64,000 nt of DNA from Oscillospiraceae bacterium. Lineage in GTDB: Bacteria; Bacillota; Clostridia; Saccharofermentanales; Saccharofermentanaceae. Each line of letters opens with the position of its first letter. Within the stretch, counting starts at the first letter, position 1. Location: assembly GCA_902780785.1 (NCBI GenBank), contig CACZGS010000011.1, positions 1 to 64,000 on the forward strand. The letters run 5' to 3'. This document shows positions 6,634 through 25,045 of this stretch, in pieces. The translations under genes and the position numbers were made by a program. The notes under the pieces are model-generated. The model did not search any database and was not told the origin of the DNA. It saw nothing but the letters and a program-made list of their open reading frames with translations.

Positions 6634-7743
6634 TTAAGCGCTTGCCTTTACTGTATTCCAGAGCTCTGTGTACTTTTCCTCGAGAGCGTCGGATGTGAAG
6701 TAAACTTCCAGTGTGCTGAATACTTCTGCGTCAGGATAGTAATACTTGTTGCCGGAGACCTCAGGATCGAGCATGTCCTTAGCTGCGGTGTTAGGTGTTG
6801 AATAGCCTACGTAATCGCAGTTCTCGTAAGCGATCTCAGGATCGTACATGAAGTTGATGAAGTCCATTGCGCCGTCGTAGTTCTTGCAGTTTGTGGGAAC
6901 GCACATCATGTCTACTGACCAGTTGGAACCCTCAGGGAGAACGAACTGGAGGTCGATGTCTGTCTTGCCGAGCTCTTCGATCCTGTCGAGCATTACAATG
7001 TGGTCGCCGGACCATGCGATGGATGCTGCGAGCTCGCCTGCGGCAACCTTATCCTTGAGGTTGTCTACGCCGTATGAAGGATGGAGAGCGCTCTTCTGCT
7101 TGATCAGGAGATCCAATGCTTCCTGAAGCTCAGCCTCGTTCATGGAGTTGATGGAGTAGCCCAAGTAGTTAAGTGCTGCACCGATGGACTCACGCATTGA
7201 ATCGTACATGCCGATGCTGTTCTGTGACTCCGTATTGAAGAGAACGTCCCAGATGACTGCAGGATCTGTTGTGTCTTCGGGAAGCGTGATCTTGTTAGCG
7301 TCGTAAACGAGACCTACTGTGCAGTAAAGATAAGGAACTGCGTAGTCAAGTACCTGGCCTGAGATCTCAGCGTTGTCTGTATAAGTAACGGACTTGAACA
7401 TGGGGTCCATATACTTTGTAACATTAGGAAGCTTGTTCCAGTCGAGGGGCTGGATCCAGTCTTCTTCGATAAGACGGCATACCATGTATTCAGAAGGGAT
7501 GATCACGTCATAACCGTTCTGAAGGTTGGGATACATTGTCTCGTTTGTCTCGAAAGTTCTGTATACAACGTCATACTGGGGATACTTAGCTTCGAACTTT
7601 GCTACTGTATCTTCTGCGATGTAGTCACCCCAGTTGTAGATGACGAGCTGCTGCTTTTTGGCGCAGCCGCAAGGCAGAAGCGCAGCGCCTGCCATGACAA
7701 GTGCTGCGAAAGAAGCAATTACTTTCCTTACGTTCTTGTTCAT
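6634..7743 (-). CDS. potD: Spermidine/putrescine ABC transporter substrate-binding lipoprotein
   Basis: 369 aa. The signal peptide has a lipobox (ALLPCGC, Cys near residue 27). The mature protein begins LVIYNWGDYIAEDTVAKFE, the classic opening of the PotD/PotF family, and later shows QNGYDVIIPSEYMV, WVIPEG-like LPEGSNWSVDMMCVP and ENCDYVGYSTPN. It binds polyamine outside the membrane and delivers it to the PotB/PotC channel. AGGAGAG precedes the ATG. It is the last gene of the operon, 59 bases after potC, and is followed by a terminator. Which polyamine is preferred cannot be told. Confidence 0.93.
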   Translation of the reverse strand: MNKNVRKVIASFAALVMAGAALLPCGCAKKQQLVIYNWGDYIAEDTVAKFEAKYPQYDVVYRTFETNETMYPNLQNGYDVIIPSEYMVCRLIEEDWIQPLDWNKLPNVTKYMDPMFKSVTYTDNAEISGQVLDYAVPYLYCTVGLVYDANKITLPEDTTDPAVIWDVLFNTESQNSIGMYDSMRESIGAALNYLGYSINSMNEAELQEALDLLIKQKSALHPSYGVDNLKDKVAAGELAASIAWSGDHIVMLDRIEELGKTDIDLQFVLPEGSNWSVDMMCVPTNCKNYDGAMDFINFMYDPEIAYENCDYVGYSTPNTAAKDMLDPEVSGNKYYYPDAEVFSTLEVYFTSDALEEKYTELWNTVKASA

Positions 7744-7802
7744 TTCTTTACTCTCCTTTTTATGCTCATTAGTTTATTACCCGAATTTGAAATGCTATAT
7801 TA

Positions 7803-8606
7803 TCACGTTTTCTTATTGCGCTTAGCCTTTTTGAACGAAGACAGGTTCGAGAGGACCATGAGGATCAGGACCGCGCCGAACATCAATGTCGTAAGAGCGT
7901 TCATCTTAGGGTTGACGCCGAGCTTTGCCATTGAGTAGATCATCATGGGCAGAGTCTGGATGGAACTGTCGACGTTGAAGTTACTGATGAGGTAATCATC
8001 GATCGAGAGCGTGAATGTGAGAAGTGCCGATGATAAGATGCCCGGCATGATCTCAGGGATTATTACCAGCCTCAGCGTCTGGAATCTCGTGGCACCAAGG
8101 TCCATGGCAGCTTCGGTAAGGCTCTTGTCGAGCTGCTTGATCTTGGGGCTTATCGATAAGATCGCGAAAGGAACGCAGAGTGCGATGTGCGACATTATGA
8201 GCGTGAACTCACTCTTCTGCACGCCTAGGAACGAGAACAGGAGCATGAATGAGATGCCCGTAACGAGATCGGGCATGACATTCGGTACATATGTCATCGT
8301 CATGGCAAGGTTCTGGAGCTTCTTGTTAAGGTAAGCCAGGCCCAAAGAACTTACCACGCCGAATGCCGTGGATGCTACTGCCGCGATAGATGCGACCTTT
8401 AAAGTCTCAATAAGGGATTCAAGGATGCCGCTTCCGTCAGAGCCCTTGAAGAGCTTTCTGTAGTTCTCGAAAGTGAATCCGCCCCAGATAAAGGACTTCG
8501 GAAGTGCGTTGAATGAATATACGATAAGTACTGCAATAGGCAGATATATGAATATCAGGAGCAATGCGAGGTAGATATCGGGTACGAGTCTTTTTGCCAA
8601 TCTCAT
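7803..8606 (-). CDS. potC: Polyamine ABC transporter permease PotC
   Basis: 267 aa with six predicted membrane segments, beginning near residue 12 (YLALLLIFIYLPIAVLIVY). The coupling loop that contacts the ATPase is EAAMDLGATRFQTLRLVIIP (near 170), the EAA motif of importer permeases. SIDDYLISNF near 207 is typical of PotC. Length matches the family. The start overlaps the potB stop by 4 bases, giving tight coupling. It forms the channel with PotB. Confidence 0.93.
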   Translation of the reverse strand: MRLAKRLVPDIYLALLLIFIYLPIAVLIVYSFNALPKSFIWGGFTFENYRKLFKGSDGSGILESLIETLKVASIAAVASTAFGVVSSLGLAYLNKKLQNLAMTMTYVPNVMPDLVTGISFMLLFSFLGVQKSEFTLIMSHIALCVPFAILSISPKIKQLDKSLTEAAMDLGATRFQTLRLVIIPEIMPGILSSALLTFTLSIDDYLISNFNVDSSIQTLPMMIYSMAKLGVNPKMNALTTLMFGAVLILMVLSNLSSFKKAKRNKKT

Positions 8607-10039
8607 AATGCCATACCTCCGCTGCCTGCTTCTTTATCCTGGCCTCTTAAGATTCCCATGGTGATGAGAACGAAGATGAGGAGGAGCAAGGATAAAACGT
8701 TGCCCGCCTGATTATAGGTCGTACTCTCGTTCAGGATGAAGTTCTGGACGGTGTTGCCGATCGTTGTTTTCGAGCCCTCATTAAGGATATCGGGGATCAT
8801 GTAGAACGTCAGTGACGGCATGAAGACCATCTGGATGCCGGAGATAACGCCCGGCAGTGACAGAGGGAAGATAACCTTAAGGAATGTCTGGATCTTGGTC
8901 GCGCCAAGGTCATATGCAGCCTCCGACAAGCTGTCGTCGAGCTTAACGAGGACTGAATACAAAGGCAGGATCATGAACGGCAGGAAGTCGTTTGTCATGA
9001 CGATCTTTGTGATGATATCAGCAAGGATCTCGTTCTTGAGGAACATTACGGGCGTGTCGATCATGCCCCACTGCTGCATCAATGTGTTGAGAACGCCTGT
9101 CTCGCTGAAGAAAGCTCTCCATGCGTATGTTCTGAGCATTGTGTTCATCCACATCGGGAGAACGAAGAGCATCAGGAGTCTTGAGCCGCTCTGGCGCTTG
9201 AGCTTGGATCTTCTGGCAAGGATATAGCTTGCAGGATATCCGAGGATCAGGCAGCCGATCGTTGTCCAGACTGCGTAGTCCAAGCTTCTCAGGAAGATCG
9301 AAAAGTATTCCTGCAAAGTAACGTCAACGCCGTAGAATCTTGTCGTTACGGTCTTGTTCTGGAAAAGAACTGCAAAGCCTGCCGTCGTGAACTCATATCC
9401 GCCGCCTGCAGCCTTCTTGAAGAAAGCGCGGAAGAGGATAAGGATCAAAGGCAGTATCGTAAAGATAACGATCCACGCAAGATAAGGATATGCGAAGATC
9501 TTGTAATTCATCTTAAGGTTCAGGGCGCCGTATAGACATGCGGCAACGCCGATGCCCAGAACGATCACCATGAGGTTGCCCGCAAAAGACTGCGCTACAT
9601 AGAGCCTTTGCGGTGTGAGGTTGTTCTCTGTGATCATCTGCTCCGAGATCATCTTGGACAAAGTTACGACATGCGCGATCCCGCGTCCGACGAAGAGCAC
9701 GAGAACGCTCAAGTATCCGAACTTTCTCTTCTTGCTCGAATTGTAATAGAAGGGATAGGATAACGCGAGCGTAAGAGCAGCTACCGCAAGGACGATCGTG
9801 ACGACGAATGCCCATGCCGCGAACTGCTGGAAATTCAGGTTAACGGAACCGCTCCTGATCCTGGTGAATACCCTCGGATTCAGGAGAAGCGTAAACAGTG
9901 AGTACGTGCGGAAAGGCACATACTGTACAAATAACTCGAACATCGGAATGAAGATGCTGATGAACGAGTAAAGTGCCGCGAAGATCATGACGAAAGCATG
10001 AACCGGCATAACCTTTAATCTGGCTTTGAGTTCAGTCAT
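8603..10039 (-). CDS. potB: Polyamine ABC transporter permease PotB with an N-terminal membrane extension
   Basis: 478 aa, against roughly 280-300 for usual PotB. The last 290 or so residues are a standard permease: AYPYLAWIVIFTILPLILIL, the EAA loop SEAAYDLGATKIQTFLKVIF (near 390) and FYMIPDIL. The first 185 residues add about four predicted membrane segments (near 13-38, 72-95, 108-125, 150-175) joined by short loops, with no motif I know. The frame is continuous and the start codon overlaps the potA stop by one base, so the extension is a real part of the protein. It may be a fused accessory subunit. Together with PotC it forms the transport channel. Confidence 0.9.
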   Translation of the reverse strand: MTELKARLKVMPVHAFVMIFAALYSFISIFIPMFELFVQYVPFRTYSLFTLLLNPRVFTRIRSGSVNLNFQQFAAWAFVVTIVLAVAALTLALSYPFYYNSSKKRKFGYLSVLVLFVGRGIAHVVTLSKMISEQMITENNLTPQRLYVAQSFAGNLMVIVLGIGVAACLYGALNLKMNYKIFAYPYLAWIVIFTILPLILILFRAFFKKAAGGGYEFTTAGFAVLFQNKTVTTRFYGVDVTLQEYFSIFLRSLDYAVWTTIGCLILGYPASYILARRSKLKRQSGSRLLMLFVLPMWMNTMLRTYAWRAFFSETGVLNTLMQQWGMIDTPVMFLKNEILADIITKIVMTNDFLPFMILPLYSVLVKLDDSLSEAAYDLGATKIQTFLKVIFPLSLPGVISGIQMVFMPSLTFYMIPDILNEGSKTTIGNTVQNFILNESTTYNQAGNVLSLLLLIFVLITMGILRGQDKEAGSGGMAL

Positions 10040-11298
10040 CAGTCTGCTTTCTCAACCTCCGCTTTTTCTTCATCTTCTTCGGTAGGCTTAACGTCAGCTT
10101 CCTCGACGACATTCTCGCCGATGCTGTTAGCCTTTGCCTCTTTTACTTCAGCGCTCTCTTCCGCGTCGGGATGCTTGATCCCGAAGCTTCCGAAATCCGG
10201 TGAGAGCTCAGATCTTCTCATGATCTGGATATCGTCGGGATCAACATAGAGACCGACACGGCTGCCGACCTTAAAAGGATCGACGTTCTGGACAAGCCAC
10301 TCAATTCCGTCATCGGACTTAACGATCATCTCGTAGTGAACGCCCTTGAAGATAAGAGATATAACTTCGCCGTTGATCCTGCCTTCAGCTTCTTCATCTA
10401 CATAGAAGTCCTCAGGTCTGATCACAACGTCTACAAGGTTTGCGATGCCTTCCGTAAATTCAGGGAACAGCGGGTCAACGCAGGCGAATGTGATACCGCT
10501 CGAGAGTGTGACCTCATGGTCTTTCTTCATCGTGCCGGCAACGATATTGGATTCGCCGATAAAGTCAGCGACGTAAGCATTCTTAGGTTCGTTATAGATA
10601 TCTATAGGTGTGCCGATCTGCTGGATGATGCCGTCCTTCATGACGATGATCGTGTCGGACATCGTCAGCGCCTCTTCCTGGTCGTGTGTGACGTAGACGA
10701 ACGTGATGCCGAGTTCCCTCTGCATCTCCTTAAGCTCGATCTGCATCTCTTTTCGCATCTTGAGGTCGAGCGCGCCCAAAGGCTCGTCCAAAAGAAGGAT
10801 CCTGGGACGGTTAACGATGGCTCTTGCGATAGCGACTCTCTGCATCTGACCGCCTGAGAGCTGGTCGATATATCTGTCGCCGTAATCTGCAAGACCTACT
10901 GTGGCAAGGGCCTTATTGACCCTTTCCTTGATCTCCTGCTTGTTTACCTTCTTGATCTTGAGGCCGAATGCGACGTTGTCGAAAACATTCAAATGCGGGA
11001 AAAGCGCATATCTCTGGAAGACCGTATTGATGTTGCGCTTGTTGGCAGGAACGCTCTTTAAGTCCTTGCCTTCGAAATTAACGATGCCGGAATCAGCAGT
11101 CTCAAAGCCTGCAATGATACGGAGCGTCGTGGACTTACCGCATCCTGAAGGACCGAGGAGCGTGATGAACTCGTTGTTCCTGATATAGAAAGTAATATTC
11201 TTAAGTACTTTTGTGCCGTCGAAGCTCTTGCAGAGATCCTTGATCTCGATGATGTGCTCGCTGCCCGTGCTGTCTTCAAGTATCTGGTTGTATGCCAT
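10039..11298 (-). CDS. potA: Polyamine ABC transporter ATP-binding protein PotA
   Basis: 419 aa. ATPase landmarks are LLGPSGCGKSTTLR (Walker A, near 50), QRYALFPHLNVFDNVAFGL (Q-loop), LSGGQMQRVAIARA (ABC signature), ILLLDEPLGALDLKMR (Walker B and D-loop) and VTHDQEEAL (switch His). A C-terminal TOBE-like regulatory domain (about 250-365) ends with GLYVDPDDIQIM. The last 45 residues are strongly acidic (EEADVKPTEEDEEKAEVEKAD) and look disordered, an extension beyond the usual PotA. It powers polyamine uptake at the inner face of the membrane. It follows the regulator gene by 36 bases. Confidence 0.95.
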   Translation of the reverse strand: MAYNQILEDSTGSEHIIEIKDLCKSFDGTKVLKNITFYIRNNEFITLLGPSGCGKSTTLRIIAGFETADSGIVNFEGKDLKSVPANKRNINTVFQRYALFPHLNVFDNVAFGLKIKKVNKQEIKERVNKALATVGLADYGDRYIDQLSGGQMQRVAIARAIVNRPRILLLDEPLGALDLKMRKEMQIELKEMQRELGITFVYVTHDQEEALTMSDTIIVMKDGIIQQIGTPIDIYNEPKNAYVADFIGESNIVAGTMKKDHEVTLSSGITFACVDPLFPEFTEGIANLVDVVIRPEDFYVDEEAEGRINGEVISLIFKGVHYEMIVKSDDGIEWLVQNVDPFKVGSRVGLYVDPDDIQIMRRSELSPDFGSFGIKHPDAEESAEVKEAKANSIGENVVEEADVKPTEEDEEKAEVEKAD

Positions 11299-12161: not shown

Positions 12162-13475
12162 ATGGCAAACATTTTGGGAAACGTTTTTAAGGGTAAAGAC
12201 GGCGTTAACGGCAGCCTTGCTGCGCAGGGTGCCGGCGGTTCAGGTTCTAATGTAAGACCTGCAAACCCTAACATCGTCAATCTCCAGACATCAGGACGTC
12301 CGGGCGGACACACCACTCATTCTGCGTCCAATTCCACAGCTGCACAGCTCGCAAGAGAGCGTGCTGAAGCTGCAAAGGCTCAGATCGAGATGCGTAAGGC
12401 TGCAGAAGCCGCACGTAAGGAAGAGCAGGAAGCAGATAAGAAGGATATCACTCCTGTAGGATTGAAGCCGCCGATCAAGCGTCCGAAGTCCGCATCAGTT
12501 AACCATGCACAGTATGTAGCAGAGCAGCTTGAGGAAGAAGAGAAGGCTGTAGCTGAGGGCAAGCCCATTGAGCGCCAGCCTCTGCCGGGAAGAAGTCCCG
12601 CACAGTCCGCACTGGCTCTTGCACAGTCTGTTGCATTAAGAGCTCAGAACGAAGAGCGCAGGGCAAGCTCAAAGGCCAAGGCAGCTGCTGCCAAGGTCGT
12701 TGAAGCAAGAAGTGCCGTAACCGCAGCAGAGGAAGCTCTTGTTGCTGCAAAGAAGCAGGAAGAGAAGTCCATCAGCAACGAAGCAATCGCAAAGGAAGCT
12801 ACGCTTGAAGCAGTTAAGCGCGCTGAAGAAGCACGTGCCGCTGCAAATAAGGCAGAAGAACTCGCCAAGATCGCAATCGCAAAGGCTGAAGAGGAAGAGA
12901 AGGCAGCAGCTGCTCTTACCGCTGAAGAAGCCAAGCTCACAGAGCGCAGAAAGACTGACGAGAAGGCAAGGATCGAAGCTGAGAAGGTCGAGCAGGATAC
13001 CAAGGCTGCAGTCATCACGGCAACACAGGAAGAAGAAGCAGCTTCCAAGGAATACGAAGCAGCTAAGCTCGCACTCGAGAAGGCTCAGAACGATCTCGAT
13101 GCAGCTAACCAGATGAAGGCAGAAGAAGATGCACGTGCCGCAGCTGAGAAGGCTGAGAAGGAAGCACGTCTCGCAGCTGAAAAAGCAATCGAAGAAGCAA
13201 GGATCGCTGCTCAGAAGGCTGAAGAAGCAAGACAGGCAGCTCTCCTCGCAGAGCAGAAGGCAAAGGCCGCTGCAGCTAAGGCTGAGGAAGAAGCAAGGAT
13301 CGCTGCTGCCAAGGCAGAAGAGATCGCCAAGCTCAGAGCAAAGACACTTGGTGCTGATGCTTCCAAGGATGCAGCTGTTAAGAAGGACGAGCCCGCTACA
13401 GTTCCCGTAACACCTGTAGCAACAGGCAGACCCGGATCAACATCTACAAGACCTGCAGCAAAGATCGCAGAGTAA
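12162..13475 (+). CDS. Ala/Glu/Lys-rich coiled-coil protein, function unknown
   Basis: 437 aa, ATG at 12162 behind GGGGGG. There is no signal peptide or membrane segment, so it is probably cytoplasmic. Residues 1-60 are Gly/Asn/Ser-rich (MANILGNVFKGKDGVNGS). Residues 60-95 are a short charged helix. A Pro-containing linker follows (PVGLKPPIKRP). Residues 150-395 form one long helix of repeated units such as AEKAEKEARLAAEKA and KAEEEARIAAAKAEEIAKL. The tail is Thr/Pro-rich. Composition resembles the middle of TolA and other long coiled coils, but that similarity is compositional and gives no function. It is monocistronic, with its own promoter and terminator. The long antisense open frames here are composition artefacts. 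Confidence 0.85.
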   Translation: MANILGNVFKGKDGVNGSLAAQGAGGSGSNVRPANPNIVNLQTSGRPGGHTTHSASNSTAAQLARERAEAAKAQIEMRKAAEAARKEEQEADKKDITPVGLKPPIKRPKSASVNHAQYVAEQLEEEEKAVAEGKPIERQPLPGRSPAQSALALAQSVALRAQNEERRASSKAKAAAAKVVEARSAVTAAEEALVAAKKQEEKSISNEAIAKEATLEAVKRAEEARAAANKAEELAKIAIAKAEEEEKAAAALTAEEAKLTERRKTDEKARIEAEKVEQDTKAAVITATQEEEAASKEYEAAKLALEKAQNDLDAANQMKAEEDARAAAEKAEKEARLAAEKAIEEARIAAQKAEEARQAALLAEQKAKAAAAKAEEEARIAAAKAEEIAKLRAKTLGADASKDAAVKKDEPATVPVTPVATGRPGSTSTRPAAKIAE

Positions 13476-13496: not shown

Positions 13497-13525
13497 AAGG
13501 GCTGTCCAAACGGGCAGCCCTTTTT
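13497..13525. terminator. Bidirectional intrinsic terminator
   Basis: AAGGGCTG, inner pairing and loop, CAGCCCTT with T-rich sequence on both sides. It serves the coiled-coil gene (plus) and the first lipoprotein gene (minus), which converge here. Confidence 0.85.
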
Positions 13526-13546: not shown

Positions 13547-16015
13547 TTAGCCTCTCTCGCTCAATACCTTCTGTGCTCTGTCCTGGGCAATGGCGATTAC
13601 CGACTGCAGATCCTTCTGGCCGAGGAAATATGCGGGCATCTCCTCGATGAGGATAAGGTTGATCGCTGCATCGCATGCATTGCTCCTGGAGCAGCTGGAG
13701 ATGATCTTCTCCATAGTATCTATATGCTCCTGGGAGAATGTAATTACGGCATTGGGATTGTTCTTGATCTCATCTCCGGAGTAGATATTGTTTCTTCCGT
13801 CTCCGTTGTAGTAAGCAACAGCCATCTGAGCTGTTTTTCTGAATGCGGTACGGCTTAATACGAACTCATCATTGAGAGCCAAAGATTCCTGGATCTCTTC
13901 TGACAGGAGGAGCTTTACGAACTCACCGCAGGCATCAGCGTTAACCGCCTGTGCAGAGACTGCAACTGAAACGTGAGGAACGAACTGGGGGCCTCTGCCG
14001 TCAGCTGAAGGAATGCCCAGGATCGCAGAACCGCCCTTGAGGTCAGAGATACCGTAGAAGTAACTGCCCATTCCGTAACATGTCGTAAAGAAACCTTTCT
14101 GTCCGTCGGCAAGGGATCTGTCACCCTTAAAGGCAACTACACCTACAGCAGGACCGATGTATGCTCCACTCGGGTCACCATCAGGGTCATTCCAGGATCT
14201 TGCTCTCTCCTGAACGTTTTCCTTGACATATTTTGCGAGTTCAGCAAACTCGGGACCGGAGAAATCAGCCTTGCCGTTAGAGATGAACTTATCGCTCATG
14301 GCATTGAAGAGTCTTGTGAAGTAGACGGCCTGGCCTGAAGTGATGACATCCTTTCCGTTTAACTCGTTTGAAAGGAACTTCTTGTATTCTTCGGTGGTAA
14401 AACCGATGCCGGAAGCGCCGGCATACTTGATGTCCGTATGGATTCCCTGAACACCGTAGCAGAGTACGAGCTGATAAAGACTGCCGTTGGTCTTGGAAGC
14501 TTCGACGATGTTGGTGAAATACTTTTCGCTGTCGAGGTCTCCGATATATTTAGAAAGATCAACAAGGTAGTTGGAGTTGTTGAGCTGCTCGAAATTAGCT
14601 ACATCCATCATGATGTCAGGACCCACACCATTCAAGAGGTCCATGGCAAGCTTATTGCTTACCTTTGCGTCACCGTTAAGAGTAGCGGTCTCATATTCAT
14701 CTTCGTTGTTAATCTGAGTTCCGTAGTTGTAAGCCTGGTCGTTTGTATAGCGTCCGGATACCTCAATGAAATACTCGGTGCTGGTGGAATTGTACTTATT
14801 AATGGCATCAGCGATCTTCTCGTTTACATATCCGTTAGGTACATAAAGTTCCATTACCGTCTTGCCGGCATGGGGGTTCTTCGAAGCCTTTGTCAGCTGC
14901 ATGATGGTGATGTCTGCAAGGCTTGTGTTGGTATACACGCCTGCATAACCCGGATCTCCGCAAAGAAGAATGCTGTCTTCCGTTATATCGCCGATGCTGA
15001 GCAGGTTAAGACGGCTTCTGTTCTCGCCGCACCAGCTGTAGTTAAATACCTGTTCTGTCGTTTTATTCTTAACGTCGATCTTCGCGATACCGACAGGTGA
15101 TGCATAGTAGATCTGCCCGTCTCTTCCGATAACGGAAGAAAAAAGATATGTGGTGTTGATCCAGTCGTAATCCTTTGCGTCCTTTTCCGTAAGTGCGCCG
15201 GACTTAAGATCCAGCTCAAAGAAGCACTGTTCATTTTCAATGTTTGCAGGGACAAGGGCCTTTCCGTCTTCAAGAGGGATTATGGCCGGAAGATCATAAG
15301 TGTTCTTTCCTTCCTTCTTAACATCTGCTGTAACTGTGTTGCCGTCAGGAGAATAGATGGTCAGTGTATAGTTTTGATATGCATCCCAATTGAGTGCAGT
15401 CTCTATCTTGTAATCGCCGATCTTATATGTTTTTGCAACACTGTTGGGGTTACCGGCCGACTTGCTGTCCAATTGGTTTCCCGTAGCAGGATCGATCGTG
15501 ATCTCTTTGCTGACGGCAGAGTCACTGACCGAATCGTAGTCGGTAATTACCGCCTTGATCTTACCGTCATTGTATGAGAGTGAATTTGTATAGCTTGAAT
15601 TACCGTATTCCTTAGTCATATCGATGGTTGATACGACCTGCATCGTCTGCCTGTCAACTACGGTCAGAAGTGCGATCTCCACGTCTTTGCTGGAGTATTT
15701 CGACCAGTCGAAATCATCCGGGAGCTGATAATTGCCGGATGAACGGACAATGATGTATTTTTCATCCGCTCCGATAAGATCGTTGAAACAATACTGTGCC
15801 TTCTTGCTCTTATCAAGCTGAGGCGTGATCGTTACTGATGAACTCTCGTACCAGGGTGAATCTTCGGCGATCTTCTGGCCTCTGCGGCTTGTTTCCTGCA
15901 TGCCGACACCGCCTTCATCGCCGCTGTTATTCTTCTTCTTGCCGCACGCAGCAGTCGAAAAAGCAATGGCGCACACAAGAGCCACTGACATTACTTTCAG
16001 GGGTAACTTTTTCAT
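13547..16015 (-). CDS. Propeller/solute-binding lipoprotein paralogue 1
   Basis: 822 aa from the ATG at 16015, which has AGGAGAG upstream and puts the signal peptide (MKKLPLKVMS, lipobox AFSTAAC) at the N-terminus. Residues 45-370 consist of short strand-rich repeats such as ADEKYIIVRSS, LLTVVDRQTMQVVST and LSYNDGKIKAVITDY, resembling a beta-propeller. After a junction NPHAGKTVMELYVPNG, the second half resembles extracellular solute-binding proteins: LLNGVGPDIMMD, YLVDLSKYIGDL, FGF-like GIGFTTEEY, and a helical end IAQDRAQKVL. Family resemblance is by eye. It is surface-anchored and its ligand is unknown. No permease or ATPase gene lies nearby. It is one of four tandem copies and separately terminated. 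Confidence 0.85.
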   Translation of the reverse strand: MKKLPLKVMSVALVCAIAFSTAACGKKKNNSGDEGGVGMQETSRRGQKIAEDSPWYESSSVTITPQLDKSKKAQYCFNDLIGADEKYIIVRSSGNYQLPDDFDWSKYSSKDVEIALLTVVDRQTMQVVSTIDMTKEYGNSSYTNSLSYNDGKIKAVITDYDSVSDSAVSKEITIDPATGNQLDSKSAGNPNSVAKTYKIGDYKIETALNWDAYQNYTLTIYSPDGNTVTADVKKEGKNTYDLPAIIPLEDGKALVPANIENEQCFFELDLKSGALTEKDAKDYDWINTTYLFSSVIGRDGQIYYASPVGIAKIDVKNKTTEQVFNYSWCGENRSRLNLLSIGDITEDSILLCGDPGYAGVYTNTSLADITIMQLTKASKNPHAGKTVMELYVPNGYVNEKIADAINKYNSTSTEYFIEVSGRYTNDQAYNYGTQINNEDEYETATLNGDAKVSNKLAMDLLNGVGPDIMMDVANFEQLNNSNYLVDLSKYIGDLDSEKYFTNIVEASKTNGSLYQLVLCYGVQGIHTDIKYAGASGIGFTTEEYKKFLSNELNGKDVITSGQAVYFTRLFNAMSDKFISNGKADFSGPEFAELAKYVKENVQERARSWNDPDGDPSGAYIGPAVGVVAFKGDRSLADGQKGFFTTCYGMGSYFYGISDLKGGSAILGIPSADGRGPQFVPHVSVAVSAQAVNADACGEFVKLLLSEEIQESLALNDEFVLSRTAFRKTAQMAVAYYNGDGRNNIYSGDEIKNNPNAVITFSQEHIDTMEKIISSCSRSNACDAAINLILIEEMPAYFLGQKDLQSVIAIAQDRAQKVLSERG

Positions 16016-16054
16016 TACTTCTCTCCTTTTCCCCAACATATATTTGAACAGTTG

Positions 16055-16090
16055 CGATTGTAAGACCGCAGGAAATCTAAACAGCATCAA
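16055..16090 (-). promoter_or_regulatory. Upstream block shared with paralogue 2
   Basis: On the minus strand TTGATGC (16090-16084) and GGTCTTACAATCG (16067-16055). Paralogue 2 has TTGATGC and GGTCGTACAATCG at the same spacing (18743-18737 and 18720-18708). A shared promoter or operator is likely, but the hexamer spacing does not fit a standard sigma-A site. Confidence 0.45.
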
Positions 16091-16149
16091 TACTTAGGCA
16101 AAAGTTGGGTAAAGGTATTTCAGAAATATTTCTTGTCAGAAAACAGCTA

Positions 16150-16178
16150 AAAGGCTGCCTCTTTTCGAAGCAGCCCTT
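16150..16178 (-). terminator. Intrinsic terminator after paralogue 2
   Basis: On the minus strand GGGCTGC, loop TTCGAAAAGAG, GCAGCC followed by TTTT. It lies about 25 bases past the stop at 16204. Confidence 0.8.
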
Positions 16179-16203
16179 TAAAAACTTTGTTTGTATGAGG
16201 TGA

Positions 16204-18666
16204 TCAGCCTCTCTCGCCGATAACCTTCTGTGCTCTGTCCTGAGCGATCTTGATGACGTCTTCGAGATTCTTCTGGCCTGAGAAATAAGCAGGCATCTCT
16301 TCGACAAGGATAAGACCGATCGCAGCATCCATTGAGTTCATTCTTGAAACGCTCGAAATGATCTTCTCCAGATCATCAACGTTCTTTTGAGAGAACTTCA
16401 TCCTATTCTTTAAAGGCTCGCCGGTATTCATGTCATATTCGACATAAGATTCTCCTCCGGGGCCGTTCATGAAATCAACAGCTTCCTTGGCGCCTTGTCT
16501 GAACGCTTCCTTGTTCAAAACAAAGTTGCCGCCCTTTGCCAAATCCATCTGTACATCATCTGTCATGAGCATCTTAATGAACTCGCCGCACGCGTCGACG
16601 CTCTTGGACTGGGCAGATACTGCGATGGAAAGGTAGGAATCAAGAAGCGGTCCGCGTCCGTCAGCAGAAGGGATTCCCAATATAGCCGTAGCACCGTTTA
16701 ACTGTGCTATCTGTGAAAGATAACCGTTAAATCCGTATGTTGCAGTATATACGGCAATCTGCTCGGAAGCCGTTGTGTCTCCCTTGAAAGCCAAAACACC
16801 AACGCCGCCTGAATATGTTTCTGCCACGTCATAGTTGTTATAAAGCTCGTCCCAGGACTTAGCCTTCTCAGGGACATTATCCTTAACAAATTCTGCGAGA
16901 GCAGCAAATTCCGGACCTGAGAAATCAGCCTTGCCGTCAACTAAGAACTTGTCGTTCATTGCCGCGAAAAGTATTGAAAAATATGCTGCCTGGCCATAAT
17001 TGAGGACATCCTTACCGTTTAATTCGTTCTTGAGGAATCTCTCATATTCTTCAGTAGTAAAACCTACACCGGATTTTCCGGCATATTCGGGTTTTGTCTG
17101 GATGCCGTTGATCATGTAGCAAATGGGCAGCTGGTATAACTTGCCGTCGTTCTCGGCTGCATCGACGATGTTCGTGAAATACTTACCGGAATCAAGGGTT
17201 CCGATAAATTTATTCAGGTCGACAAGATAGTTGTCGGAATTAAGCTGGCCATAAGAACTTGTATTGAGGAGGATGTCCGGACCTTCACCGTTCAAGATGT
17301 CCATCGCAAGGTCATTGCTCATTGAAGCGTTATACTTCAGGTTTGCTTTCTGCCAGTCGTCTTCGCTGTTGACATCCGTGTAAAAATTGCCTTCAGTATC
17401 GGAATAACGGTCAGCAGCCTCAATAAAGTATTTTCCGTTAGTATCGTTGAATTTAATGATCGCATCGCCGACACTGACATCTACGCTTGAATAAGGCGCG
17501 TAGAGTTCCAGGATGGACTTGCCGGCATGAGGATTTGTCTCTGCCCTGTCCAATGCGATGAGCAGATACTCGTTGGCAACGCCCGGCACATATGTTGTCA
17601 TTGCCTTCTCGCCCCAAAGGATCATGGAATCGTCAGAGCATTCGATCAGCTGGAGGTATCCCAAGTATGCTCTGTTTATGGAACACCAGCTGTAATTCAA
17701 TACCTCTTCAGTTGTCTTCTTCTCTAAATTGATCTTTGAGATACCGCTGGCAGATGAGAAATATGTCGTTCCGTCTTTTCCCGTAAATGTGTTGTAGATG
17801 CTCTCGGGATCAAGCCAGTCGTATTTCTTGGAATCGGTAACTGTTGCAGTGTAATTCTTGATGTCGATCTCGTAGTAGACCGGATCATTGTCTGTATATG
17901 CAGTTGCCAAAAACTTGTCTTCGCTGACTTTCAGAACAAGCGGAATATCATAGAGGTTCTGGTTCTTATCCCTAAGCTCGATGGAATGTTCAATGTCTTC
18001 GTCACCCTCGGTTATGAACAGCGTGTAATAACACCTGTCTTCCTCATCCCAATTAGATGAAGTCTTGATCGTGTAAGGATCAAACTTGAATGTACGGTCG
18101 TAATAGTGGTAAGAGTCATCATAAGGAGCCTCTGTTTTGTCTGTGACTTTTCCTGTCTGGGCATCACAAGCATATTTATAGACGGTCATCTTGTTCGTCT
18201 TCTCATCGTATGAAGACATGTTGAACTTGAACTTTCCGTCTTCATATTCTATGTTCTCGATATAACCGTTCTTAGGCAGGTACTCTTTAAGATCATAAGT
18301 CTTCTCTGTCTTGCCTGTCTCTTTGTCTACAAATGAAATGGTATTGATCGAATAATCGTTTTGATTGAAGTTATTCCAGTCAATGTTCCCTGAAGGTATC
18401 TTATAGTAACCGTTTGTATATAACGCGAAATACTTGTCATCCGAACCGACGTACTGCTGGGATGCGTATTCAAGCGTTTTCTTGGGATCGACATCAGCCT
18501 TAAAGCTCCTGGTAGTACTGTTAAACCAGGGTGAATCAGCTGATATTACCTGTCCGCTCCTGCTCTTCTCTCTTTTCTTGCTGTTACTCTTGTTGCACGC
18601 AGCCATAGGCAGAACCATAGCCGCGATCAAAGTACAAGATAACACCTTGATCGGAATTCTTTTCAT
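16204..18666 (-). CDS. Propeller/solute-binding lipoprotein paralogue 2
   Basis: 820 aa from the ATG at 18666 (AAGGAGAAAG upstream; an ATG 21 bases earlier is less well placed). The signal peptide MKRIPIKVLS ends at lipobox LPMAAC. The plan is that of paralogue 1. The strand-rich first half includes SDDKYFALYTNG and IEYEDGKFKFNMSSY, and YFSSASGISKINLEKKTTE is the best conserved repeat. The junction is NPHAGKSILELYAP. The binding-protein half has ILNGEGPDILLN, YLVDLNKFIGTLDSGKYF, VGFTTEEYERFLKNELNG and ILGIPSADGRGP. It ends IAQDRAQKVIGERG. It is monocistronic, with its own terminator. The ligand is unknown. Confidence 0.85.
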   Translation of the reverse strand: MKRIPIKVLSCTLIAAMVLPMAACNKSNSKKREKSRSGQVISADSPWFNSTTRSFKADVDPKKTLEYASQQYVGSDDKYFALYTNGYYKIPSGNIDWNNFNQNDYSINTISFVDKETGKTEKTYDLKEYLPKNGYIENIEYEDGKFKFNMSSYDEKTNKMTVYKYACDAQTGKVTDKTEAPYDDSYHYYDRTFKFDPYTIKTSSNWDEEDRCYYTLFITEGDEDIEHSIELRDKNQNLYDIPLVLKVSEDKFLATAYTDNDPVYYEIDIKNYTATVTDSKKYDWLDPESIYNTFTGKDGTTYFSSASGISKINLEKKTTEEVLNYSWCSINRAYLGYLQLIECSDDSMILWGEKAMTTYVPGVANEYLLIALDRAETNPHAGKSILELYAPYSSVDVSVGDAIIKFNDTNGKYFIEAADRYSDTEGNFYTDVNSEDDWQKANLKYNASMSNDLAMDILNGEGPDILLNTSSYGQLNSDNYLVDLNKFIGTLDSGKYFTNIVDAAENDGKLYQLPICYMINGIQTKPEYAGKSGVGFTTEEYERFLKNELNGKDVLNYGQAAYFSILFAAMNDKFLVDGKADFSGPEFAALAEFVKDNVPEKAKSWDELYNNYDVAETYSGGVGVLAFKGDTTASEQIAVYTATYGFNGYLSQIAQLNGATAILGIPSADGRGPLLDSYLSIAVSAQSKSVDACGEFIKMLMTDDVQMDLAKGGNFVLNKEAFRQGAKEAVDFMNGPGGESYVEYDMNTGEPLKNRMKFSQKNVDDLEKIISSVSRMNSMDAAIGLILVEEMPAYFSGQKNLEDVIKIAQDRAQKVIGERG

Positions 18667-18707
18667 ATACTTTCTCCTTATATCCATAATTCCGGATTAT
18701 ATACTAC

Positions 18708-18743
18708 CGATTGTACGACCCCGAGATATACAATCTGCATCAA
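18708..18743 (-). promoter_or_regulatory. Upstream block shared with paralogue 1, containing an inverted repeat
   Basis: The minus strand carries TTGATGC and GGTCGTACAATCG as upstream of paralogue 1. Here GATTGTA and TACAATC also form a 7-base inverted repeat separated by 13 bases. A TATAAT lies a little further downstream (around 18696-18701). Confidence 0.45.
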
Positions 18744-18786
18744 AATTAAGGCAATTACAAGGTAAGCGGGTATCAAACACGTTACA

Positions 18787-18820
18787 ACCCTGATTTGAGG
18801 AAATAACCTTAACGTTATTC
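18787..18820 (-). other. Hairpin overlapping the paralogue 3 stop
   Basis: On the minus strand GAGGGAATAAC, loop, GTTATTTCCTC. No T-run follows, so it is either a weak terminator or an mRNA 3'-end structure. Confidence 0.4.
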
Positions 18821-21142
18821 CCTCTCATCCAATACCTTCTGAGCTCTGTTCTGAGCGATCTTTATAACCTCATCCAGACTCTTCTGGCCCGTAAAATATG
18901 CCGGCATCTCCTCGATCAGGATGATGCTTACGGCCTGATCTTCCGAATCCATAGAGGAACAGCTGAGGATGATCTTTTCGAGATCATCAATATTCTTCTC
19001 AGAGAACTTCATCCTGTTCTCCAGTTTCTGCCCCGTTCTGCTGATGCCGTAGAAATTGTCACTTTCAGATCCGTTAGCATACTCTACAGCTGCCGTGCCC
19101 GCTTTCCTTAAAGCCGCTTTGTTAATGACGAGGTTTTCCTGCATGGCGAGATCTTCCTGGATCTTATCGGACAACAGGATCTTAATGAACTCTACTGAAG
19201 CTTCAACATTCTGAGACTGTGCGGATACGGCTGCCGAAGTATATGCCCGGAACATGGGACCTCTGCCGTCAGAAGACGGGATTCCCAGGATGCTGACATC
19301 GCCTCTGATCTGGGCGAGCTCATAGAAATGGAAGACCCATCCGTGGCAAGAGGTATAAATGGCATTATCCCCTAATCTGTCGGAGGAATAGACCTTCTCC
19401 GGAACATTCTTCTTAACAAAGTCTGCAAGCGCCGCAAATTCAGGTCCCGTGAAATCGGCCTTGCCTTCTTTAATGAACTTTTCCTTCATTGCAGTGAAGA
19501 TCTTTGCAAAGTATTGTGCCTGTCCTGAGCCAATAACGTCTTGGCCGTTAAGCTCATCGTATAAGAATTTCTCATATTCTTCCGTGGTAAAGCCCACACC
19601 CGAAGCTCCGGCATTAGTCTTATCCGTATATATGCCTTCGATAATAAAACACAAGGGCATATGGTACAGTTTCCCGTCCACCTTGGAGCCTTCCATTAAG
19701 TTCGTGAAATATTTCGCGGGATCAAGATCATTGAAATACGGCGACAGATCTACAAGATAACTGCTGTTGTTAAGTTGGCCCAACATGCTCGCATTCATTA
19801 TGATATCAGGCCCTTCGCCGTTCATTATGTCCATGGCAAGGCGGGTGCTCATTTCCATGTTTTCATTGAGTACATCATTCCGGACTTCAAGAGTATCAAA
19901 CCATTTCACAGCTTCTGTCTGATACTTGTTGATAACCTCAATAAAACAGTCTTTATTCGTCTCATTAAACTCAAGGACCGCATCATTGATCCTGTTGTTT
20001 GTAGGTCCGTCAGGAACGTAGAGCTCTAATATTGTCTTTCCGGCATGAGGATTTTTCGCTGCCTTGTTAAACTTAATGATATAAAAATTCACATCAGCGG
20101 CCATGTTATAGTATGTCTTATAAGCATGCTGGCCGCAGAGAGTATAGGAATCACCATCAACGTTTGCCACCTGGAGGTCTTTCAAGATATTCCTGTTAAT
20201 ACTGCAATAGCTGAAATCAACAACTTGCTCTGTTGTCTTCTTATCAAGATCGAGCTTGAAAATGCCCATGGACGACGTGTAATAAGTCCCGCCGTTAATA
20301 CTATAAGCATGCGCCAGATCATCAGAGCTGATCCATTCGTAATCCTTAGGATCAAGTGATCTTGCTTCGCCGGTCTTCAGGTCCACTTCGAAAAATCTGT
20401 CACCTGAAGAAGAGTCGGCAACAGCAAGTGCCGTTGTATCTCCGGCCGATATAATTCCCTTAAGGTCATACATATCAATTCCGGCTTCTTTCAGGTTGGT
20501 GTTCTTAAAACTGCCGTCAGGAGAATAGATCCTCAATATGATAAATGCATTTCCGGATGGGTATTTAACATCGTAATCGGCTTTGTAATCACCGACAACA
20601 AAGCATCTCTGGGGTATAAAGCCGTCTTCTGAATGCTCTTGTGAATCCTTTATCTTTCCGGTATCGATATCAATATCCTTATCAATGGTCTTAGACTCCC
20701 CGGTGTCAGGGTCAGTGGCATAAACATGAAGATTGACTATACCGCTCTTATAAGAAGCTCCGACGATCCAGTCCGACCAACGGATCTCTCCTTTAAGATC
20801 TATTGTCTTTGCGGTTATGCCCGTTTCCTTGTCGACAACTGATATGGATACGAACACGGAATCATCAAGTTGTTTTATGGTTGGATTATCTCCGGGTGTG
20901 TCATATGAGCCGCTGGTCAAGATGATATAGTTTTTATCATCCGAACCTGCCAGCCGTGAATTTCGGTCGTAAATGTCACGTTCCATGTCGATCCCAATAT
21001 CGGCTTTGACAACACCGGTGTCATACCATGGTGTATTAGCTTTGATCTTCTTTTCTTTCGCGGATCTGTTGCATGCAGTAACAGATGCAACCATCGCAAA
21101 TATCAGCACAGCTGATACTGCCCTAACTATTGTTCTTTTCAT
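18815..21142 (-). CDS. Propeller/solute-binding lipoprotein paralogue 3
   Basis: 775 aa from the ATG at 21142, preceded by an AAGGGG/AAAGGA ribosome site. The signal peptide MKRTIVRAVSAVLIFAM ends at lipobox ASVTAC. The first half is strand-rich (SDDKNYIILTSGSYDTPG, YYTSSMGIFKLDLDKKTTE). The junction is NPHAGKTILELYVPDGP. The second half has IMNGEGPDIIMN, YLVDLSPYFNDLDPAKYF, VGFTTEEYEKFLYDELNG, ILGIPSSDGRGP and VSIILIEEMPAYFTGQKS. It is about 45 residues shorter than paralogues 1 and 2, mostly in loops of both halves. By eye it is closest to paralogue 4 (FNDLD, QENLVINKAALR versus QENYVLNREAFR). A TATAAT around 21191-21196 may be its promoter. Confidence 0.85.
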   Translation of the reverse strand: MKRTIVRAVSAVLIFAMVASVTACNRSAKEKKIKANTPWYDTGVVKADIGIDMERDIYDRNSRLAGSDDKNYIILTSGSYDTPGDNPTIKQLDDSVFVSISVVDKETGITAKTIDLKGEIRWSDWIVGASYKSGIVNLHVYATDPDTGESKTIDKDIDIDTGKIKDSQEHSEDGFIPQRCFVVGDYKADYDVKYPSGNAFIILRIYSPDGSFKNTNLKEAGIDMYDLKGIISAGDTTALAVADSSSGDRFFEVDLKTGEARSLDPKDYEWISSDDLAHAYSINGGTYYTSSMGIFKLDLDKKTTEQVVDFSYCSINRNILKDLQVANVDGDSYTLCGQHAYKTYYNMAADVNFYIIKFNKAAKNPHAGKTILELYVPDGPTNNRINDAVLEFNETNKDCFIEVINKYQTEAVKWFDTLEVRNDVLNENMEMSTRLAMDIMNGEGPDIIMNASMLGQLNNSSYLVDLSPYFNDLDPAKYFTNLMEGSKVDGKLYHMPLCFIIEGIYTDKTNAGASGVGFTTEEYEKFLYDELNGQDVIGSGQAQYFAKIFTAMKEKFIKEGKADFTGPEFAALADFVKKNVPEKVYSSDRLGDNAIYTSCHGWVFHFYELAQIRGDVSILGIPSSDGRGPMFRAYTSAAVSAQSQNVEASVEFIKILLSDKIQEDLAMQENLVINKAALRKAGTAAVEYANGSESDNFYGISRTGQKLENRMKFSEKNIDDLEKIILSCSSMDSEDQAVSIILIEEMPAYFTGQKSLDEVIKIAQNRAQKVLDERE

Positions 21143-21237
21143 TCCTTTTCCCCTTGTGCCGTTAAGCACCCTACAGTTTCCTTTAATCCCCAATTAGGTA
21201 TTATACGCCATCTTCTACAGAATTCACCTGTTATATG

Positions 21238-21267
21238 AAAAAGGCCGTCTCATGTGAGACAGCCTTT
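21238..21267 (-). terminator. Intrinsic terminator after paralogue 4
   Basis: On the minus strand AAAGGCTGTCTC, loop, GAGACGGCCTTTTT, a few bases past the stop at 21273. The same hairpin type ends the TIR gene near 61343. Confidence 0.88.
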
Positions 21268-21272
21268 GCTGT

Positions 21273-23645
21273 TTATTTTCTCTCGTCCAATACTTTTTGA
21301 ACTCTGTCCTGGGCTATCTTTACGACATCCTCAAGACTCTTCTGGCCCGTAAAATATGCCGGCATCTCCTCGATCAGAATGAGGTTTACCGACTGGTCCT
21401 GCGACCACGCGCCGGAAACGCTCAGGATGATGGATTCCAGATTATCGATATCCTTCTCTGAGAACTTGATCCTGTTCTGGAGCTTTGCTCCCGTCTGCAT
21501 ATCATATCCGAAAGAAATATCCCCTGCAGGGCCGTTATAAAACTCCACTGCTGCCTTTCCTCCCTTGCGGAAAGCCTCACGGTTAAGAACGTAGTTCTCC
21601 TGCATGGCAAGGTTTTCCTGGATCTCATCGGATAATATGAGCTTTATGAATTCGATACATGCATCCTTATCCGGTGCCTGGGAAGATACCCCGGCTGAAG
21701 TATAAGCCTGAAACGCGGGGCCCCTTCCGTCTGCAGACGGGAGGCCCAGGATCGTAAGATCATCTCCCTTATATTCGGCGAGTCCGTAAAAATATCCGCT
21801 TATGGCATAACAGTGTATGTAGCTCCCTTTATTATTCGTCTCCGGGTAGTTTTCACTGCTATATGAAGGAGCCTTCTCCGGAACGTTCTCTTTTACATAG
21901 TCGGCAAGAACCTTGAAATCCGTTCCGGAAAAATCCGCCTTACCTTCTTTTATGAATTTATCGCTCATGCAGCTGAACAGTTCTGCGAAATAATACGCCT
22001 GTCCTGATGTGATCGCTTCCTGTCCGTTAAGCACTGTGCTTACAAACTTCCCGTATTCCTCAGTCGTAAACCCGACACCGGACGCACCTGCATTCTTCTT
22101 GTCCGTGCAGATACCGTCAATGGTGTAGCAGACGGGCATCTGATAGAGCTTGCCGTCCTTTTTCGCTGCTTCAAGAAGATTCGTGAAATACTTCTCTTTA
22201 TCAAGATCATTGAAGTAAGGTGCCAGATCTATAAGATAGCTGTCATTATTAAGCTGGCCTAAATTACCTGTATTCATAATGATGTCAGGACCTTCCCCGT
22301 TCATGATGTCCATCGCGAGACGGTTGCTCATTTCGGCTTTCTGGTTCAGCATCACATTATCGTATTCATCTGAGCTGTCCACAGTCATGAATTCAGTGCT
22401 GGTATTCGGAGTGTACTTATTTGTTACCTCGATGAAGCAGTTTCCGTTTGTTTCGTTAAACTTCAGGATCGCGTCATTTACCGTCTCATCCAGATGTCCG
22501 TAAGGCGCATAGAGCTCTAATATGGTCTTTCCGGCATGGGGGTTTTTCGCGGCCTTGGAAAGCTTAACAATATAGAATTCCGCTGCATATTTGTTGGCAT
22601 CGTATCTGTTGCCGTAATCCTTCTTGCCGCAAAGGACATAAGAGCCGTCCTTGCAATCTGTTATCTCGAGGGATGAAAGGAGCGTCCTGTTTATGCCGCA
22701 GCGGCTGAAATCAAGGACCATCTCCGTGGCCTTCTTCTCCATGTCGATCTTATAGATTCCCAAAGGTGTTGAGAAATATGTCGCGCCGTCTATGTTCTTT
22801 GTATTTCTTAAGTCATCGGCATTGATCCATTCATATTCGGCAGAATCAGCATCCTTGACCTTCGCATTCTCAAGGTCTAACTCGAAGAACTTGCTGCCCA
22901 CGTTCGTAATGGCGGTGATCAGGGCCGTTTTCTCATTCAAAGGCAGGATAAGGGGAACCTCATAGATGTCTGCACTATGCTCTTTGAGTTCGACTTTATT
23001 CATGTTGCCGTCGGGAGAATACACAGCCAGCATGACAGAAGAACCGGTCTGGTTCCATAACATCATGGTGTCCACGGTATATCCGCCAAGCTTAAATGAT
23101 TTATCAACAGGTACCTCTGATCCTGAGGTGAGTTCGCGTGTATCCGTTACTTTTCCGCTCGCGATGTCCAGATCCTTCTCTGACGTCTTGACCGAATAAG
23201 TTTTCTCATCATAACCGCTGATCTTGATCGTAAGTTTTCCGTCGTTATAGTCTGCACCGGTCATATCGTCCATGACAGATATCTCGTCATTTAAGTTGAT
23301 AGTCCTGACTGTCGTGTTGTTCTTTCTGTCTACCACCGATACGGTCGCAATGACATAAGGATTGGCTTCCTCCACCGTTGTGATGGAATCAGGCATCATG
23401 TATCTGCCCTTGGTTACGATAACCATGTTCTCATCATCGGCGCCGGCGATCCATGAAAATGTCTGTTCGACCTCCTTGCTCGTATCTATCCCCAGATTGA
23501 TCTTATAGATTTCTGACTCATACCATTCCGAATCCGCCGCGACCTTCGCTCCTTTATTCTTGCCATTCACGTTGCAGGCTACTATCGACATGCCCATGGC
23601 AAATAACAGTACGGCAGATACTGCCCCAACCACTGCTTTTTTCAT
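21273..23645 (-). CDS. Propeller/solute-binding lipoprotein paralogue 4
   Basis: 790 aa, ATG at 23645 with AGGGGG about 8 bases upstream. The signal peptide MKKAVVGAVSAVLLFAMGM ends at lipobox SIVAC. The two-part plan is again clear: a strand-rich first half (ADDENMVIVTKGRYMMPD, YFSTPLGIYKIDMEKKATE), junction NPHAGKTILELYAPYGHLD, then IMNGEGPDIIMN, YLIDLAPYFNDLDKEKYF, VGFTTEEYGKFVSTVLNG, ILGLPSADGRGP and LILIEEMPAYFTGQKS. The most divergent segments among the four copies are the first-half loops and the stretch around residues 560-620. This suggests different ligands on a common frame. It is the most upstream member of the array and separately terminated. Confidence 0.85.
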   Translation of the reverse strand: MKKAVVGAVSAVLLFAMGMSIVACNVNGKNKGAKVAADSEWYESEIYKINLGIDTSKEVEQTFSWIAGADDENMVIVTKGRYMMPDSITTVEEANPYVIATVSVVDRKNNTTVRTINLNDEISVMDDMTGADYNDGKLTIKISGYDEKTYSVKTSEKDLDIASGKVTDTRELTSGSEVPVDKSFKLGGYTVDTMMLWNQTGSSVMLAVYSPDGNMNKVELKEHSADIYEVPLILPLNEKTALITAITNVGSKFFELDLENAKVKDADSAEYEWINADDLRNTKNIDGATYFSTPLGIYKIDMEKKATEMVLDFSRCGINRTLLSSLEITDCKDGSYVLCGKKDYGNRYDANKYAAEFYIVKLSKAAKNPHAGKTILELYAPYGHLDETVNDAILKFNETNGNCFIEVTNKYTPNTSTEFMTVDSSDEYDNVMLNQKAEMSNRLAMDIMNGEGPDIIMNTGNLGQLNNDSYLIDLAPYFNDLDKEKYFTNLLEAAKKDGKLYQMPVCYTIDGICTDKKNAGASGVGFTTEEYGKFVSTVLNGQEAITSGQAYYFAELFSCMSDKFIKEGKADFSGTDFKVLADYVKENVPEKAPSYSSENYPETNNKGSYIHCYAISGYFYGLAEYKGDDLTILGLPSADGRGPAFQAYTSAGVSSQAPDKDACIEFIKLILSDEIQENLAMQENYVLNREAFRKGGKAAVEFYNGPAGDISFGYDMQTGAKLQNRIKFSEKDIDNLESIILSVSGAWSQDQSVNLILIEEMPAYFTGQKSLEDVVKIAQDRVQKVLDERK

Positions 23646-23842: not shown

Positions 23843-25045
23843 TTACTCGATGATTGTAGAAACTGTACCAGCGCCTACTGTGTGACCACCCTCACGGATA
23901 GCGAACTTAAGACCCTGCTCCATAGCGATAGGAGTGATGAGGTCTGCTTCGATTGTTACATGGTCACCAGGCATGCACATGTCTGTTCCCTCAGGAAGCT
24001 TGATAACGCCTGTAACGTCTGTTGTTCTGAAGTAGAACTGAGGACGGTAACCTGTTACGAAAGGCTTATGACGTCCACCCTCTTCCTTTGTAAGAACGTA
24101 AACTTGGCCTGTGAACTTTGTGTGAGGAGTTGTTGTGCCGGGCTTAGCGATAACCTGACCTCTTTCAACTTCCTTACGGTCGATACCACGGAGGAGGCAG
24201 CCGATGTTGTCACCAGCCTCAGCCTGATCCATTGACTTACGGAACATTTCTACACCAGTGATTGTTGTAGACTTAGGCTCGTCCTGGAGACCAACGATCT
24301 CTGCAGGATCACCAACCTTAACTGTACCTCTCTCAAGACGGCCTGTAGCAACTGTACCACGGCCGGAGATTGTGAATACGTCCTCAACAGGCATAAGGAA
24401 CGGCTTGTCAACAGGACGCTCAGGTGTAGCGATGTACTCATCAACAGCCTTCATGAGCTCGATGATGGATGCATACTCAGGAGCGTTAGGATCTGTAGAT
24501 GTAGACTCGAGTGCTGCAAGAGCAGAACCACGGATGATCGGAGTGTCATCACCAGGGAAATCATACTGGTTGAGGAGGTCACGGATGTCCATGTCTACGA
24601 GCTCAAGAAGCTCTTCGTCGTCAACCTGATCGCACTTGTTCATGTAAACTACGATATAAGGAACGCCTACCTGACGAGCGAGAAGGATGTGCTCACGTGT
24701 CTGGGGCATCGGGCCGTCTGCAGCGGAAACTACGAGGATAGCACCGTCCATCTGAGCTGCACCAGTGATCATGTTCTTGATGTAGTCAGCGTGGCCAGGG
24801 CAGTCAACGTGTGCATAGTGACGTGTCTCTGTCTCATACTCAACGTGTGCTGTGTTGATCGTGATACCACGAGCTCTTTCCTCGGGTGCGGAGTCGATGT
24901 TGCTGTAATCCTTAAACTCAGCTCCACCCTTCATAGCGAGTACCTTTGTGATAGCAGCTGTAAGAGTTGTCTTACCGTGGTCAACGTGACCAATGGTACC
25001 GATGTTTACGTGCGGCTTGCTACGTACGAACTTTTCTCTTGCCAT
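23843..25045 (-). CDS. tuf: Translation elongation factor Tu
   Basis: 400 aa, full length. GTPase motifs are [10 protein letters not shown] (G1, near 18), [12 protein letters not shown] (switch I), DCPGHADY (G3), NKCD (G4) and SAL (G5-type, in RGSALAALE). Beta-barrel domains 2 and 3 follow, with [19 protein letters not shown] and a terminal [10 protein letters not shown]. It delivers aminoacyl-tRNA to the ribosome. AGGAGGAAA precedes the ATG. It is the last gene of the str cluster, 160 bases after fusA, and has its own likely promoter in that gap, which would allow higher expression. Confidence 0.98.

Follow-up and report, generated by a model that had tools for sequence, protein, structure and literature searches.

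A lineage-specific expansion of two-domain binding lipoproteins, most likely out of an unusual ABC transporter operon

Four tandem lipoprotein genes in a 64,000-nucleotide stretch of an Oscillospiraceae genome (hereafter the window) belong to an expansion of two-domain binding lipoproteins that is specific to this lineage and most likely arose out of an unusual ABC operon. The same architecture recurs in many paralogs of this genome, some of which are fused to or encoded beside signalling proteins, and distant homologues in other families of Clostridia are encoded in one operon with a permease pair. The array lipoproteins are most likely not transporter-less in origin. Our best explanation, which we hold to be somewhat better supported than not, is that the family supplied a hybrid ABC importer with its binding proteins, became separated from it and diversified, and that some members were co-opted as sensor ectodomains.

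The initial annotation described four tandem, same-strand lipoproteins of 775-822 aa with hairpin terminators of their own behind at least three of the genes and with no permease or ATPase gene in the array, and this description holds. Open reading frames are accompanied by lipobox-type signals in all four proteins (TAAC, MAAC, TAC and VAC), neither a permease nor an ATPase gene lies inside the array, and a strong hairpin with a T-run follows the genes at 21273, 16204 and 13547, while the gene at 18815 is followed by a hairpin without a T-run (Table 1). Full-length identity to P0004 ranges from 44 to 52% (44-45% for P0001 and P0002), and the junction consensus NPHAGK(T/S)(V/I)(M/L)ELY is present in each protein. 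None of the four has an NCBIfam name. The position of the EF-Tu gene beside the array is kept in many relatives, often with the Pot-like operon nearby as well; among the best 25 Pfam families listed for 67 adjacent same-strand genes, matches are mostly to EF-Tu, from this conserved array site, followed by three to BlaI and two to M56, and no permease is among these 25 families. The gene convergent to the array encodes a protein of 437 aa that is rich in Ala, Lys and Glu, looks coiled-coil-like and matches no Pfam family.

Table 1. Features of the lipoprotein array and its surroundings, with positions in the window.
Feature	Position	Strand	Basis
Complete polyamine-type (PotABCD-like) ABC operon: SBP, two permeases, ATPase	6634..11298	-	
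Hairpin between gene 1 and convergent gene 12162-13475	13497..13522	.	+ strand terminator; T-run on - strand too
Propeller-SBP lipoprotein 1 (P0001, 822 aa)	13547..16015	-	ORF, family match
Intrinsic-terminator-like hairpin after gene 2	16147..16181	-	z -4.2
Propeller-SBP lipoprotein 2 (P0002, 820 aa)	16204..18666	-	ORF, family match
Propeller-SBP lipoprotein 3 (P0003, 775 aa)	18815..21142	-	SBP_bac_8 E 7.7e-10
Intrinsic-terminator-like hairpin after gene 4	21241..21267	-	-19.2 kcal/mol, z -4.5
Propeller-SBP lipoprotein 4 (P0004, 790 aa)	21273..23645	-	SBP_bac_8 E 2.5e-11; model pLDDT 90.4, pTM 0.88
Predicted solute-binding half of P0004, residues 373-788	21282..22529	-	Pfam and structure match
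Predicted beta-propeller half of P0004, residues 42-364	22554..23522	-	structure prediction
Junction NPHAGKTILELY of P0004	22509..22544	-	sequence
Junction equivalents in the other three genes	20018-20053, 17500-17535, 14843-14878	-	
EF-Tu gene directly upstream of array	23843..25045	-	

A propeller-like, strand-rich half and a half resembling solute-binding proteins (SBPs) had been proposed from the sequence, and both were borne out by predicting the whole of P0004 and its N-terminal half alone. The whole-protein model was made with AlphaFold2 on an alignment of 73 sequences, and the N-terminal half by itself gave a pLDDT of 93.3 and a pTM of 0.87. This half, with about 24 strands, resembles beta-propellers across nearly its whole length (Z 12-13, rmsd ~4.5 A, ~250 residues); six- and seven-bladed propellers both match, and prediction confirms a beta-propeller, a ring of four-stranded sheets. 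As the beta-propeller is a common fold, we make no family claim for it. The C-terminal half is confidently predicted to be an ABC sugar-type solute-binding domain: the model has the two-lobe SBP fold and matches CbpC (7x0o) with Z 20.9 and an rmsd of 4.3 over 365 aligned residues. SBP_bac_8 scores above its curated cut-off of 27 bits in P0003 (39.4 bits) and P0004 (44.4 bits); P0001 and P0002 have no Pfam match despite their identity to P0004. The predicted fold suggests oligosaccharides as the ligand. However, in one study (PMC9601137) CbpC, which is the closest match among solved structures, bound no sugar of those tested and had a loop in its pocket, at odds with an earlier report, so that even a sugar ligand is uncertain for the array proteins.

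The initial annotation also proposed diversification by duplication, in agreement with the 21 intact and diverged paralogs in the window's genome, a Saccharofermentans-like one from rumen, of which the array comprises four; one further copy is cut by a contig end and there is a small fragment. Among the first 40 relatives searched, members of the genus have 0 to 26 matches and other genera of the order have 0 or 1. Profile searches extended this distribution to four further genera of the same family that carry propeller-SBP proteins, one probably with many copies, and to five genomes of an order-mate genus with one match each; a class-wide sample contained distant homologues in 9 genomes of two further families. 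The close relatives are labelled as Saccharofermentans or as Ruminococcaceae/Clostridiales and come mostly from rumen and gut. In the tree, copies 3 and 4 are sisters, and copies 1 and 2 pair with the dispersed paralogs L028 and L027 (100% support), which makes the array older than some of the dispersal and leaves local tandem duplication insufficient as the sole source of the array. In several genomes (L030:835-2331, also L077 and L094) a second SBP-like lipoprotein of ~490 aa, with a weak DUF3502 match in L030, is encoded directly upstream of a propeller-SBP gene.

The evidence for an importer origin comes from distant Clostridia and from an operon elsewhere in the window's own genome. In nine of the ten loci read (G212, G363, G383, G390, G403, G457, G225, G025 and G556), from three other families and including an order-mate with a single copy, a distant homologue is encoded in an operon of MalF, MalG, an HlyD-like adaptor, a MacB_PCD protein and the propeller-SBP; the tenth, G523, did not show this operon. 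In the four g55 genomes that carry the operon, it is preceded by genes for a GntR-type regulator (identified by eye), for an ABC ATPase and for a large membrane protein. The window family aligns with the operon proteins at an hhalign probability of 99.8 (E 1.8e-28) over the final blades of the propeller and the entire SBP domain, the first blades lying outside the aligned region. The window's genome contains the same four-gene core on another contig (G000:C10:98196-103555) with the SBP gene absent and two small lipoprotein genes following. Among the loci of this genome that were compared, the C10 MalG scores 341 bits where the next best permease reaches 91, the C10 MalF scores 311 against 52, and the HlyD-like adaptor and the MacB-like protein are each the sole match. 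The presence of this SBP-less hybrid operon leads us to call the window genes detached binding proteins. The initial annotation had the four proteins without a transporter, a reading that homologues routinely found beside a matching permease pair would contradict; this is the arrangement outside the genus, in nine of ten distant loci, and together with the SBP-less permease operon it makes that part of the annotation incorrect or at least incomplete. An operon at loci L160-L179 brings import permeases together with an HlyD-like adaptor and a periplasmic core protein of the MacB type, and the literature searched gave no description of it.

A second group of paralogs is linked with signalling genes. 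In the window's genome, a 1093 aa protein (L031:4982-8263) fuses an N-terminal M56 peptidase (PF05569, E 5.6e-26; HExxH motif HEACH) to a propeller-SBP, with the family model covering residues 317-1093 and SBP_bac_8 matching at E 5.8e-14, and its gene starts 1-2 bases behind that of a BlaI protein (PF03965, E 6.7e-25). In all eight M56 fusions read in relatives, HExxH is intact and the next gene upstream encodes BlaI. At L035, also in this genome, BlaI, M56 and SBP are three consecutive genes with a 19-base gap before the last, and a relative (L102) has the same order with a 60-base gap. At L029, an ECF sigma gene is followed by a small membrane-protein gene and then an SBP gene; the small membrane-protein gene has no Pfam match and could encode an anti-sigma factor. 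The tree requires no fewer than two changes to account for M56 fusion, and most fused copies fall with the ECF-linked copy of this genome in one supported cluster, with the window copies outside it. The window copies have no M56 domain, and no BlaI or M56 genes occur in or beside the array. Sensing, which had been put forward for the window proteins, is a genuine use of the module in the M56/BlaI fusions and the ECF-linked operon, but for the window four, which fall outside the cluster of most M56-fused copies, it is no more than a candidate role.

Several features of these signalling loci deserve mention in their own right. In L031:4621-8263 (G000:C1), the TM4 region of the M56 fusion reads ALALSMAAILLLTSCS and includes a lipobox-like Cys, so that the last helix of the receptor could have originated as a lipoprotein signal peptide. 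A small lipoprotein and a membrane protein, neither with a Pfam match over cut-off, flank the ECF-linked propeller-SBP (L029:7459-8067 and 10524-11150, G000:C5). Another protein of this M56 subfamily, whose C-terminal domain is alpha/beta-hydrolase-like, is encoded behind BlaI (L112:7728-9888, G000:C6) and directly after a MalF gene without an SBP, which suggests that the subfamily swaps sensor domains.

The best explanation would unfold as follows. The four genes encode lipid-anchored extracellular binding proteins in which a type I ABC solute-binding domain comes after an N-terminal beta-propeller. These proteins would trace back to the binding protein of a hybrid ABC importer that combines MalF-like and MalG-like permeases with an HlyD-like adaptor and a MacB-type periplasmic-core protein. 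The operon state still seen in distant Clostridia would be ancestral; in Saccharofermentans the SBP gene would have left the operon and multiplied to ~20 diverged copies, each most likely capturing a different ligand at the surface and passing it on in trans to the one permease that the operon encodes at a distant site. We infer that the window copies feed the distant C10 permease. Other paralogs would have been recruited as extracellular sensors, fused or linked to BlaR1-type M56 and BlaI proteins and to an ECF sigma operon. The propeller may act as a spacer or as a wall- or glycan-docking platform. Several points weigh against this explanation: no propeller-SBP copy in this genome lies beside a matching permease, a single permease served by ~20 SBPs would be out of the ordinary, and the M56 and ECF linkages show that the module can serve sensing without transport. 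An SBP gene usually adjoins the genes of its cognate permease pair, although this is not obligatory.

The permease partner could instead lie among other transporters. The complete Pot-like operon of the window has its own SBP and is ruled out; its PotB-like permease (8606-10039) carries an N-terminal extension of ~185 residues ahead of the PotB match. A Dpp-like operon near L027 was judged unlikely, with an adjoining oligopeptide-type SBP gene (by eye) and an opposite-strand orientation. The genome also holds two MalFG pairs without an SBP (L115 and L112) and two single permease genes, and the array proteins might serve such orphan pairs and not the HlyD/MacB-type operon, a reading that we consider distinctly improbable. 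The L115 pair (L115:5869-7736, G000:C7) and its counterparts in relatives (L131-L139) form a conserved MalF/MalG pair with no adjoining SBP gene in any locus read, including all nine in relatives. Across 85 genomes, L115-type MalF co-occurs strongly with protein 4-like copies (28 of the 33 genomes; odds ratio 67, compared with 5.3 for a control permease), but, as the identities of the control permease reveal, the two are chiefly markers of a single clade, so that this co-occurrence is weak evidence and was set aside as proof of a partnership. Moreover, no locus read has a propeller-SBP beside an L115- or L112-type pair, and the homologues in distant relatives accompany permeases of the HlyD/MacB-type operon.

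The signalling loci raise the alternative that the window lipoproteins are not transport proteins but receptors that signal in trans to M56/BlaI or ECF/anti-sigma regulators encoded elsewhere. The L031 fusion, the eight fusions in relatives and the L035 and L029 gene orders all speak for it, but the window copies stand apart from the cluster of most M56-fused and ECF-linked copies, the array has no adjoining regulator gene, and only two of the seven BlaI/M56 pairs in this genome are linked to the propeller-SBP family; we regard this alternative as unlikely. Least credible to us is surface capture or adhesion, in which the domains would hold polymers or cell-wall material with the propeller as the working part and with neither transport nor signalling involved. 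The missing adjacent permease in this genome, the conservation of the propeller half as a fold and the reported blocked pocket of the nearest SBP structure (PMC9601137) are in its favor; the permease operon around distant homologues and the sensor fusions, which suggest ligand-driven signalling, count against it.

If confirmed, three aspects of the detached-importer explanation would be new: a type I importer operon that also encodes an HlyD-like adaptor and a core protein of the MacB type, binding proteins that departed from this hybrid operon and expanded to at least 20 copies, and BlaR1-type proteolytic receptors that sense via an ABC binding protein and not via a penicillin-binding domain. 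The literature searched, with most subscription journals outside its coverage, yielded no description of propellers fused to SBPs, of M56-SBP receptors or of the hybrid operon. Through such receptors, the BlaI/M56 systems that are common in this genome would gain a route to nutrient sensing, and the fused M56-propeller-SBP genes make this idea directly testable. More tentatively, and on balance doubtfully, a rumen bacterium may hold ~20 interchangeable propeller-SBP receptors that share one hybrid importer and are a repeated source of BlaR1-type sensor ectodomains, combining uptake and gene control in one module.

These proteins can be compared with four known groups. With the sugar-type ABC SBPs (SBP_bac_8/SBP_bac_1; CbpC and CbpB of Clostridium thermocellum; the MalE family) they share the two-lobe fold and the lipoprotein signal, but they add a ~330-residue N-terminal beta-propeller and occur as about 20 paralogs with no adjoining permease in this genome. 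The propeller half fits the folds of BtuG/YncE-like extracellular propellers (Z 11.5-12.9), although sequence identity is only 8-11%. Like MacA/MacB-type export machinery, the systems encoded at C10 and in the distant operons include an HlyD/RND-type adaptor and a MacB_PCD protein; unlike it, they combine this adaptor and core with MalF/MalG-type import permeases and, in the distant operons, with a propeller-SBP, and the match to MacB covers its periplasmic-core part, with no MacB ATPase domain seen. The fused paralogs have in common with BlaR1/MecR1 and BlaI/MecI an M56 domain with HExxH, a BlaI-type repressor gene immediately upstream and a large C-terminal domain predicted to lie outside the cell. 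They differ in having a propeller-SBP as the sensor in place of the penicillin-binding domain, and in a last membrane helix that, with its lipobox-like Cys, resembles a lipoprotein signal. BlaR1 cleaves BlaI once its sensor binds a beta-lactam (PMC9834060), and by analogy such signalling would carry over to the M56-propeller-SBP fusions; with the penicillin-binding domain replaced by a propeller-SBP, the fused paralog may work like BlaR1 and yet not be a penicillin sensor of that family.
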